In this document: in pieces, positions 9,215 to 55,627 of the stretch
Position numbering within the stretch: the first letter of the stretch is position 1
How the letters are laid out: each line of letters opens with the position of its first letter
Assembly: GCF_022549215.1 (NCBI RefSeq)
Contig: NZ_JAKZFC010000001.1
Span: 124,001 to 188,000 of the forward strand
Length of the DNA: 64,000 bases
Source of the DNA: Solibacillus palustris
Lineage (GTDB): Bacteria > Bacillota > Bacilli > Bacillales_A > Planococcaceae
Reading direction: 5' to 3'
Notes under the pieces: model-generated
What the model was told of the DNA's origin: nothing
Seen by the model: the letters and a program-made list of their open reading frames with translations, nothing else
Database searches by the model: none
Program-made: the position numbers and the translations under genes

Positions 9215-9887
9215 TTATTAACTCATAACGAGCATTTTACAATACAAAATTTGGAACCAAGTGCATGTATCTAATAAAGTCCGTTCTGCTACGTTACGGG
9301 AGGCCAACATGATGTTGGTCACGAATGCGTTGCCACACAATGTGGCGTTTTTAGCATTTGTTCCACTGTTTCTGGGGGCGTGGCTTCAACTAACTCATTT
9401 GTGCCTCTTACGGTGGCACAAATGAGTGGATTTTCCGCACACGCTTGATCCCCTAGAAGTCGCCCCCTTCACTTCGCGCCACTCTAACATCAAACTAAAG
9501 TTGGTTTTTATTACATTGTTTTTTAATAAAGTTTGTTAATTCAATGCTGTTATTGAAGAAAAGTCTAAGGATATTTTTCTTTGACGCAATAAAAGAAGCT
9601 AATTTTATTGCTGTAGCTAACTTTTATTCAAAGATACAATAAAGTATACAGCGTAATATTTATTTCATCACCGCCGCCTCGCGAAAGCGCAAGCGGCTAC
9701 ATTTTACGCACTTAACTTTACTGGAAAAAGTAACATTTTTGTTTGGCGGGCCTTGCATGCGGCATTAAAGACAGTAGTATGGGCACGTACCACGTGGCCA
9801 CAATGCTGTCGTGCCGTAGCCCGCCAAAAATAAATTACACTGTATTAAATCCAATTTTTGTTAGTGAACTTACTCAATGTTAGTTTC
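9215..9887 (+). repeat. Long structured non-coding repeat, copy 1
   Basis: This fills the 955-bp gap between helD and the acyltransferase gene. It is a diverged inverted copy of 54883-55480. Blocks shared almost exactly include CCGTTCTGCTACGTTACGGG, TCTGGGGGCGTGGCTTCAAC, CCCCTAGAAGTCGCCCCCTT, ACTAAAGTTGGTTTTTATTA, TCACCGCCGCCTCGCG and an 81-nt terminal hairpin (9745-9825, GGCGGGC...GCCCGCC). Between the blocks the copies differ by hairpin insertions (for example GCCAACAT/ATGTTGGT at 9303-9319 and ACTCATTTGTGCC/GGCACAAATGAGT at 9393-9427). The ends form an imperfect inverted repeat (AACTCATAACGAG at the left; AACTAACATTGAG reading inwards from the right). No open reading frame is conserved between copies. 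Candidate large structured RNA or non-autonomous mobile element; the strand is arbitrary. Confidence 0.75.
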
Positions 9888-10018: not shown

Positions 10019-11116
10019 ATGAATAAGCAGTTAGACGAAGTTCAATACGCGCGTGCATTTGCGATGTTTGCCGTATTGTTTGTGCATTTTAGTTCGACAG
10101 GTTTAGGGGGGGTTACTCCTGAATCAAGTACGTTTTATATATACTCGGCATTCAATACAATAGGGAAGATTGGGGTGCCCGTATTTTTCTTTTTAAGTGG
10201 CTTGGTGCTGCTATATAGCTATAACAAAAGGCCGTTTACAAAGGAAACCATCCTGCAATTTTACAAGAAGCGTTTGAAATATATAATTGTTCCTTATATC
10301 GTCATTTCGACTTTTTATTTTGTTGTAAGTACAGTAAAATATAGTAGTTTTACATCTGTACCAGCATTTTTGACGGATTTAGGTGAAGCGTTATTATGGG
10401 GAAAAGCCTATACGCATTTGTATTTCTTATTTGTACTTTTACAGTTTTATTTAATTTTCCCGTTCATATTGTATTTCTTTAAGAAAGTGAAGGTTCGTGT
10501 TTCAGTTGTGCTAATTGTTTCGCTAGCTTTGCAGTTTACTTGGTTTTATGTGAACAAAAATTATGTACAAGTGGAAGCACGTGGTTCGTACTTTATGTCG
10601 TATTTACCGTTCTTTTTAGTAGGTGCTGCGATGGGGGCCAATTATGCGCAACTCGATCAATGGTGGCAAACGAACCGAAAAAAAATGACTGCGTTTATTG
10701 TGACACTGTTTGCAAGTGCAGCTGTGAGTTTGATTGTGGTGGATATTTGGACACGTGCGGGTACATTGGATAACTATTTACCGTCTACCCCGTATCGTTC
10801 GTATATTTTTGATGGACTATGGGTACTTTTAGGGCTAGCAGGTAGCTTGTTTACGTTATGGTTAGGGAAAGTGGTGATGGCACTGGACTATGCGCCATTA
10901 CAGCATTTCTTAAATCGATTAGCTCAATTGTCGTTTGGTATTTATTTGATTCACCCATTTTTCTTACTATATTTCCGCGATTGGTTACCAAGTTCAACAC
11001 CGCTCGTATTCCATGGTTGGCAGTTGTTTACCGCAATTGCGATTACCGGCATTTGTTGGGTACTGACGAGTTGGTTAAGTAAGTGGAAAGCTAGTTGGAT
11101 TATTATCGGTAAATAA
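10019..11116 (+). CDS. Acyltransferase 3 family membrane protein
   Basis: A 365-aa integral membrane protein with about ten hydrophobic segments, typical of the acyltransferase 3 (OafA/YrhL-like) family that transfers acyl groups to cell-surface or secreted sugars. The N-terminal segment has the family pattern YARAFAMFAVLFVHFS with the conserved His. PVFFFLSGLVLLYSYN follows, and the C-terminal part has LSFGIYLIHPFFLLYF, the usual last motif. No extra SGNH domain is present. A G-rich box (GGGGG) precedes the ATG. No neighbouring polysaccharide genes show the acceptor, so the substrate is unknown. Confidence 0.85.
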   Translation: MNKQLDEVQYARAFAMFAVLFVHFSSTGLGGVTPESSTFYIYSAFNTIGKIGVPVFFFLSGLVLLYSYNKRPFTKETILQFYKKRLKYIIVPYIVISTFYFVVSTVKYSSFTSVPAFLTDLGEALLWGKAYTHLYFLFVLLQFYLIFPFILYFFKKVKVRVSVVLIVSLALQFTWFYVNKNYVQVEARGSYFMSYLPFFLVGAAMGANYAQLDQWWQTNRKKMTAFIVTLFASAAVSLIVVDIWTRAGTLDNYLPSTPYRSYIFDGLWVLLGLAGSLFTLWLGKVVMALDYAPLQHFLNRLAQLSFGIYLIHPFFLLYFRDWLPSSTPLVFHGWQLFTAIAITGICWVLTSWLSKWKASWIIIGK

Positions 11117-54882: not shown

Positions 54883-55480
54883 TAACTAACATTGAGCAAA
54901 TTCACTAACAAAAAATGGATTAAGTACAGTGTTACTAATTTTCGGCGGGCTACGGCATGACCGCATTATGGCCACGTGTTACGTGTCCATACTACTGTCT
55001 TTAATGCCGCATGCAAGGCCCGCCAAATTAAAATGTTACGTTTTTTATAAAGGTAAAAGAGTCCAATGTTGCCACTTACGCTATCGCGAGGCGGCGGTGA
55101 AGAATAAAATAGTACGCTGTATACAAATTGTATCTATGGTTACAAGTTAGCTCTGTAGAAAAATGAGCTATTTTGAGTGTCTCAAAAATAAAATCATTTT
55201 AGACGAAAGTGGACTTTATTTCAATTACAAAGTTCAATTCTGTACACTTCATTCAAAAGTTTTGTAATAAAAACCAACTTTAGTTTTATAGTAGAGTGCC
55301 GCGAAGTGAAGGGGGCGACTTCTAGGGGATTAAGCGTGCGCGGAAAATCCACTATATATATAGTTAGTTGAAGCCACGCCCCCAGAAAAGCGTCCCCCGT
55401 AACGTAGCAGAACGGACTGTATTATATAAATACACTTGAATCCAAATTTTGTATTGAAAAATGCTCATTATGAGTTTTAA
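54883..55480 (-). repeat. Long structured non-coding repeat, copy 2 (inverted)
   Basis: This fills most of the 813-bp gap between the MFS and DUF779 genes and is the reverse-orientation partner of 9215-9887. Shared blocks include the 81-nt terminal hairpin (54944-55024), CGCGAGGCGGCGGTGA, TAATAAAAACCAACTTTAGT, GGGGGCGACTTCTAGGGGAT, AAGCCACGCCCCCAGAAA and CCGTAACGTAGCAGAACGG. At 55351-55364 this copy has the perfect palindrome ACTATATATATAGT where copy 1 has a 13-bp stem of different sequence. The right end runs into CTCATTATGAG and the outer ends are imperfect inverted repeats that include TTATTAAA/TTTAATAA. The 73-codon frame inside it is not conserved in copy 1. Copies are roughly three-quarters identical outside the variable parts (estimated by eye). 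Confidence 0.75.
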
Positions 55481-55627
55481 TAAGAAAAGTCGATTCATAC
55501 TAGGGCTTCTAGTGTGAATCGGCTTTTTTCATATGACACTAACGTCGTCATCATAGTACTTTGCTATATCTTGGTTTAATCGTGTTTTCAAAAATATCAA
55601 TGGGCATAAATATGAGTGATCATTTAA

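Follow-up and report, generated by a model that had tools for sequence, protein, structure and literature searches.

A MITE-class repeat family of Solibacillus and Lysinibacillus with conserved modules predicted to fold

The gene-less block that occurs twice, in opposite orientations, in a 64,000-nucleotide stretch of the Solibacillus palustris genome (the stretch is hereafter the window; the genome, G000, comprises 3.99 Mb in 42 contigs) is a mobile element of the MITE class. Its mobility is supported by inverted ends, target duplications, sites that lack the element in a near-identical strain and copies in related species. We consider it probable that the block belongs to a non-autonomous transposon family of this class, with a mosaic interior that contains folded modules under selection, one of which (module B) works as RNA. 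A reading of the sequence alone had offered two proposals, a large structured RNA and a mobile element of the non-autonomous type; the latter stands, and the structure is found not in a single RNA of 600–670 nt but in two modules set in rapidly changing, AT-rich DNA. The element is laid out as a left inverted repeat, module A, in which extra hairpins accumulate, and then, behind an AT-rich spacer, module B, with the right inverted repeat closing it.

Copies, ends and empty sites

As the sequence-only reading had noticed, the block recurs inverted, and copies 1 and 2 align in two pieces (78% and 89%). The blocks described at 9215–9887 and 54883–55480 exist, with the exact borders, as set by the family-wide ends, lying slightly inside: copy 1 spans 9222–9883 on the plus strand (662 bp, from CTCATAACGAGC to CAATGTTAG) and copy 2 spans 54886–55474 on the minus strand (589 bp), both with the ends common to the family. 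The imperfect inverted repeats reported for both ends are real (CTCATAACGAGC and CTAACATTGAGC); in copy 1 the terminal inverted repeats, taken from the family ends, occupy 9222–9254 (left) and 9842–9883 (right) on the plus strand, and the element starts with CT and finishes with AG. Coding had been discounted, and neither block holds an open reading frame (ORF) of 100 aa or more.

At least 60 pieces of G000 match the block at E ≤ 0.001 (40 of 66 candidates scored). Twenty-eight places were extracted and aligned, and 22 of them carry both ends according to a score cut-off, the right end being doubtful in one or two (L025 and L030). A pattern search for five-prime ends found 25, against none with a reversed control pattern. 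In the shortest forms (95, 137 and about 252 bp) the ends persist and most or all of the interior is gone. No ORF of at least 90 aa contains any of 23 G000 copies: 8 lie between convergent, 12 between co-directional and 3 between divergent genes, and among the 12 with co-directional neighbors, 8 are oriented with the genes and 4 opposite to them.

Over the 22 two-ended copies, the identity of the 6-bp flanks is 0.561, compared with 0.421 for randomly re-paired flanks (0 of 2000 permutations); the 6-bp offset was picked from 240 combinations, and 12 of the best 15 also gave 0 of 2000. The target duplications, about 6 bp and AT-rich, are clear in L007, L008, L002, L013, L019, L011 and the mini-copy L031; those of both window copies agree in 4 of 6 letters, which counts against our preferred explanation.

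G151, a strain from the species group of G000 that is 96%–97% identical over the part of the window that was searched, lacks the element at nine loci where G000 has it, both window copies included. Four of these loci are clean empty sites with a single-copy target in G151 (L011, L017, L020 and L031), and four have a rebuilt, unclean junction (L001, which is copy 2; L014; L015; and L016, which is copy 1); the site that matches copy 1 has 24 nt in place of the element. The unclean junctions at the sites of both window copies are a further point against our explanation. At the L002 site (L098 of G151, at 10807), the flanks meet without a gap and both target copies are kept, which looks like loss of the element, as by precise excision, rather than a site that was never filled, and this too counts against our explanation. 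Among the remaining loci open to comparison, L033 is common to the two strains; both strains carry an element at L003, L009 and L010, and at L012, L013 and L032 they carry elements of different lengths; L034 is shorter in G151. Where G000 has L008, G151 has a different hairpin-rich sequence (L100, near 16231) with a Bacillaceae-1-like CACGTCCTGTGG motif. A terminator-like, nearly perfect long hairpin with runs of A and T (window 55485–55527) adjoins copy 2, and G151 has this hairpin too at the corresponding site, which is without the copy.

Bacterial MITEs are short, gene-less sequences with inverted ends and target duplications that lie between genes, as a review describes them (PMC10969869). 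The present element shares all of these features and, like them, would be moved in trans, a DDE transposase acting on its inverted ends. It has terminal inverted repeats, target duplications and empty sites and is without a transposase gene; a transposase with the same ends was not found in the same genome, near six solo ends or among matches to ISL3 transposases, and such a partner is not a strict requirement for a MITE, because partners get lost. Among the ORFs near six solo ends, judged by eye, there is no transposase with window-type ends. The element differs from these MITEs in that its interior is better conserved than its ends, shows covariation above controls and keeps the same fold within three kinds of ends.

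Fold and covariation of the two modules

Module A (∼145 nt) is predicted to form a long, imperfectly paired hairpin whose apical hairpin varies greatly between copies. In copy 1 it lies, as placed by eye and by alignment, at 9281–9486 on the plus strand, where it is interrupted by an insert described below; in copy 2 it lies at 55292–55415 on the minus strand, where the apical hairpin is short and the insert is absent. Module B (∼158 nt) has a two-hairpin fold. In copy 1 it lies at 9669–9827 on the plus strand, with a small hairpin at 9673–9697 and a long one at about 9744–9827, and alignment and fold place it at 54942–55099 on the minus strand in copy 2. The pairing seen earlier at 9673–9697 is the small hairpin of module B, and the G-U pair that copy 2 has there holds up too. 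Module B of copy 1 scores 176.4 bits with the covariance model R1, in whose alignment this copy was included.

For covariation we used chosen sets, 34 of 40 sequences for module B and 34 of 37 for module A, leaving out copies with deletions, insertion sequences or a replaced hairpin. With 34 sequences each, RNAalifold predicts 39 pairs in module B, 11 of them with changes on both sides, and 35 pairs in module A, 14 of them with changes on both sides. The covariation score of module B within the genus of the window is 0.140, compared with 0.081 ± 0.004 for shuffled alignments (0 of 500) and at most 0.044 for slid ones; for module A it is 0.250, compared with 0.087 ± 0.006 (0 of 500) and at most 0.088. 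When module B is taken over both genera (40 sequences, 39 distinct), 25 of 39 pairs have changes on both sides, 97.8% of cells are paired and the score is 0.462, compared with 0.166 ± 0.008 when shuffled (0 of 500) and at most 0.129 when slid, the two-genus set having been aligned to the model and hence leaning towards it. Covariation above both kinds of control, as in functional structured RNA, is thus found in modules A and B alike. Counting against our explanation, further pair types are not above the shuffled level, either in the two-genus set of module B (49 vs. 49.2) or in module A (29 vs. 27.1, 115 of 500). Taken together, these data strongly support a selected fold within the modules.

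The two strands of module B are not equivalent. On the tree there are 29 G-U and 8 A-C events (p = 0.0008), in a test made with 66 sequences aligned by a sequence profile and restricted to pairs that RNAalifold predicts on both strands; a wider set, with pairs taken from the plus-strand model, gives 27 and 6. The long hairpin (9740–9832) is predicted to fold at −51.0 kcal/mol on the plus strand (z = −5.6) and −41.8 on the minus strand (z = −4.7), and the small hairpin is slightly better on the minus strand (−16.8 vs. −13.8). Module B tolerates G-U over A-C on one strand; it is thus the plus strand, in single-stranded form, whose fold is selected, most simply as RNA. The raw count for module A points the opposite way (26 G-U and 54 A-C), with the apical hairpin misaligned, and the strand test was dropped for this module because that hairpin misaligns; a by-hand count over clean pairs gives about 21 G-U vs. 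19 A-C cells (i.e., no strand preference), which we again count against our explanation.

A strand asymmetry of this kind would fit RNA and single-stranded DNA alike. Integron attC sites and REP hairpins are one-strand recognition structures, and folded single-stranded DNA also tolerates G-T over A-C. Module B could accordingly be a structure that a recombinase or transposase recognizes on one strand, and the appearance of extra hairpins at fixed places in both modules would be in keeping with this. We nevertheless regard such a role as unlikely, since, among the three kinds of ends around module B, two show the ordinary marks of double-strand transposition (inverted ends with 6- or 8-bp duplications) and since four genomes of the genus also have module B in tandem or inverted arrays between a pair of genes. 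A fold selected in RNA is the reading that we retain for module B.

Extra hairpins were seen in individual copies. L113 of G151 has a 71-nt hairpin module within module A that is absent from the orthologous L003 of G000, and a very similar module occupies the corresponding position in L019 and L024; the difference would stem from insertion, loss or gene conversion. In L191 and L192 of Lysinibacillus composti, a Bacillaceae-1-like hairpin pair lies in the 3′ arm of the long hairpin of module B (L191, 1070–1129).

At gathering score, Rfam gives one match in the whole window, to RF01690 (Bacillaceae-1; 9304–9370, minus strand; 63.3 bits, cut-off 35). This is the insert in module A of copy 1, 67 nt that are absent from copy 2, and membership of RF01690 explains only these positions and not the element as a whole. 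Beyond it, no family of Rfam 15, with OLE, GOLLD, ROOL, HEARO and raiA included, reaches its gathering cut-off in the window or seven relatives. The best other match in copy 1, up to E = 10, is to throat-1 (16.8 bits, E = 0.065, cut-off 124.4); it does not recur among the matches of copy 2, all of which are below cut-off, and was taken as chance. A known Rfam RNA is therefore ruled out as the identity of the element except for the insert. The earlier statement that no described family has these motifs accordingly stands for modules A and B with respect to Rfam 15, and for the element with respect to the top-ranked papers listed from the open-access literature, but not for the 67-nt insert. No description of the repeat appeared among the matches listed from the open-access literature, outside which most subscription papers lie.

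Bacillaceae-1 RNA (RF01690), which appears in two reports (PMC2864571 and PMC4333381), makes up the insert in copy 1 and also occurs in Lysinibacillus L191, the latter matching at 38 bits against a cut-off of 35. The place of insertion differs, being module A in copy 1 and module B in L191, and modules A and B themselves have no match. In one of these reports, CsrA is proposed to bind the reverse complement of Bacillaceae-1 (PMC4333381); we do not build on this idea for copy 1, because its loops differ from the consensus.

A conserved core on exchanged ends

Among 21 copies of G000, identity is 0.858 in module A, 0.905 in B1 and 0.840 in B2, compared with 0.748–0.776 in the spacers and 0.722–0.731 at the ends. 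The contrast is sharper between the consensus sequences of G000 and of a sister species (G010): the core agrees at 27 of 27 positions in B1, 84 of 85 in B2 and 108 of 115 in the arms of module A, whereas the spacer agrees at 93 of 196, the linker of module B at 25 of 44, the apical hairpin of module A at 17 of 30, the left end at 31 of 59 and the right end at 21 of 56. Put differently, the hairpins of module B are identical at 111 of 112 positions, and spacers and ends are 38%–57% alike. As regards selection after insertion, three shared sites show 36 differences in 783 positions of the modules and 64 in 1052 of the spacers, counts that come from these three sites only.

These figures bear on two further accounts of the element. 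If it were one large structured RNA of ∼600 nt, as the sequence-only reading had suggested, the constant order and orientation of A and B among the copies aligned from G000 and G010 would follow naturally. The 196-nt spacer, however, is only 47% alike between the species, the four loci L175–L178 (in Lysinibacillus, G001 and G002) have module B without a match to module A, and short copies do without most of the interior; we reject this account as very improbable, the spacer being so little conserved. Alternatively, the element could be an ordinary dead MITE, with hairpins that are a decaying interior and a likeness between copies that stems from bursts, horizontal transfer, palindrome correction or gene conversion. 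The G010 copies do represent a recent burst, and copies seem to exchange hairpin modules, the 71-nt hairpin being present in one of two orthologues (L113 and not L003). Decay is nonetheless hard to reconcile with hairpins of module B that are 99% alike between species in which the spacers are about 47% alike, and the GC-rich parts of an AT-rich genome should, if anything, decay faster and not slower. The strand bias between G-U and A-C is not accounted for by palindrome correction alone, and Lysinibacillus still has the fold after numerous paired changes, so that we judge this account to be quite unlikely. Recent horizontal transfer or gene conversion would also explain the likeness of the modules between species, but not as the whole story, in view of the diverged forms of module B in other species. 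We keep to a MITE-class family with selected modules in its interior.

The G010 copies are recent (most pieces are 91%–99% identical to one of them, and one copy 79%–83%), and they have ends of another type (GGCTCATCACC...), unlike those of the window. Their 8-bp duplications agree at 69 of 80 letters, compared with a permutation mean of 36.9 (0 of 5000); 6 of 10 are perfect, and 2 of 12 loci gave no end pair. An 8-bp target duplication is the rule for ISL3. The G010 copies have the GG start and the 8-bp duplication of an ISL3-derived MITE, and the window copies do not. A G010-type end also adjoins a remnant of an ISL3 transposase in G013 (L084; Pfam DDE_Tnp_ISL3, E = 4.5e-12). A full-length ISL3 element with such ends was not found: L235 of G013 has none within 8 mismatches over the stretch covered, and only the remnant (L084/L237) has the end. 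No ISL3 transposase match was found in G000, G151 or G010, and ISL3 is not supported as the mobilizer of the window copies, the ends being different (6 bp with a CT start vs. 8 bp with a GG start) and G000 having no ISL3 transposase.

In three G010 copies (L073, L074 and L075), a two-ORF insertion sequence, by eye presumably of IS3 type, lies inside module B, with Pfam matches to HTH_Tnp_1 and rve in L073. The insertion point is the same in L073 and L074, so the composite has probably moved with its passenger. The transposase genes in these copies, which are nested in module B with a 3–4-bp overlap, were dismissed as a mobilizer. A second repeat family of ∼310 bp (L078–L083 in G013 and G000; e.g., L082 at about 271 and L083 at about 215) has an ISL3-type left end, with right ends placed by eye, and short tandem repeats of CGAGCATAAA or TCGCACGTAAA; two of its copies are in the genome of the window itself.

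A third type of ends is seen in Lysinibacillus genomes G306 and G307, where module B lies in an element of ∼350 bp bounded by GAGGCCGGGACATAAG...TGTCCCAGCCTC (GAGGC-GGGACA). Similar ends, with 4 and 3 mismatches in 20, flank a PF13751 transposase gene in G306 (L243), and we take these ends and the L243 element to be of IS1182 type. Module B is thus carried by three types of ends: those of the window, the ISL3 type with 8-bp duplications and the GAGGC-GGGACA type of Lysinibacillus. The likeness to ISL3- and IS1182-type insertion sequences lies in the ends of the G010 and of the Lysinibacillus copies, respectively, whereas the window copies have neither kind. Since ends and spacers are replaced and the fold persists, the family is defined by its core and not by its ends.

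The model of module B finds it in 17 of 261 genomes of the order, namely in 14 of 16 of the genus of the window and in 3 of Lysinibacillus. A wider model (R3), run over the class with strict filters that may lose weak members, finds it in 1 of 398 genomes, that of the window, in a draw that did not include the Lysinibacillus positives. An exact motif scan of 84,980 species gives 30 stretches, only in Solibacillus (faecavium and merdavium) or Lysinibacillus (antri and composti), in a collection where the species of the window may be masked. Plasmids and phages gave no match, and viral contigs none for the module B motif; an 18-nt pattern of module A occurs in 26 viral stretches, and in these the module A model finds no match at 1e-5. 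Module A may resemble a very common Bacillaceae repeat; short matches occur in 7 genomes of other genera among 151 searched.

Module B also occurs without a match to module A, as at L175–L178 of Lysinibacillus, G001 and G002. In G001, G005, G007 and G012 (L245, L246, L247 and L250), which otherwise have few copies, two to four of them (the fourth a weak match) are lined up, in tandem or inverted, in the space between two genes. The flanking genes, assigned by Pfam in G001 and by eye in the other three genomes, are AMP-binding (acyl-CoA-ligase-like) and Peptidase_S9, and this is a shared old locus.

What module B may do

If module B works as RNA, it would be transcribed by read-through from neighboring genes or from a promoter not yet seen; the window copies have no conserved promoter or terminator, which counts against our explanation. 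Tentatively, its likeliest single job would be as a cis-acting fold in the 3′ part of a host message, given that some copies immediately follow a stop codon and that the fold belongs to one strand. Such a fold would stabilize, end or insulate the message, and insertion behind genes would then be tolerable; on the other side of the balance, only 5 of 23 G000 copies start or end within 10 bp of a neighboring stop codon. The closest precedents for this role are the BOX elements of Streptococcus pneumoniae (PMC3049150) and the ERIC-type repeats, which have been linked to mRNA stability (PMC2229807). BOX elements consist of boxA, a variable boxB and boxC and are predicted to fold if transcribed (PMC3049150). 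By this description, our element resembles them in being modular, in its predicted fold if transcribed and in gaining and losing modules, and it differs in its larger hairpin modules with covariation and in having relatives with recognizable transposon ends.

A role in trans, in the spread of the element itself, comes next and is not a likely one. HEARO (the omega RNA of IscB) and the reRNA of TnpB are scaffolds of RNA-guided nucleases, and module B might be such a scaffold, or an RNA that helps copies to persist. This would explain why it is kept on different transposon ends, being the only part seen with all three, and why a one-strand fold is under selection, but no family of this sort was found at gathering score with Rfam 15 in the window or in seven relatives, and a guide would start at the element border, whereas module B is set about 55 nt in from the right end. 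We hold it improbable that module B is a mobility RNA of this kind, and the cis-acting fold remains our preferred, if tentative, proposal. It is conceivable, though rather doubtful, that the unit of inheritance is module B itself, a structured RNA, selfish or of service to the host, which persists across two genera on successive transposon ends; if its RNA core does outlive the machinery that moves it, eukaryotic SINEs would be its counterpart.

The element, then, is a MITE-class repeat, and its core is a structured family, most simply of RNA, that is absent from Rfam 15. Small bacterial repeats are usually treated as scraps of transposons in which the ends matter and the middle does not; here, it is the middle that is conserved. 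The core provides a candidate structured-RNA family of about 158 nt, present many times over in several genomes of harmless soil bacteria (Solibacillus and Lysinibacillus), and a testable case of a bacterial mobile element that may be built around an RNA.
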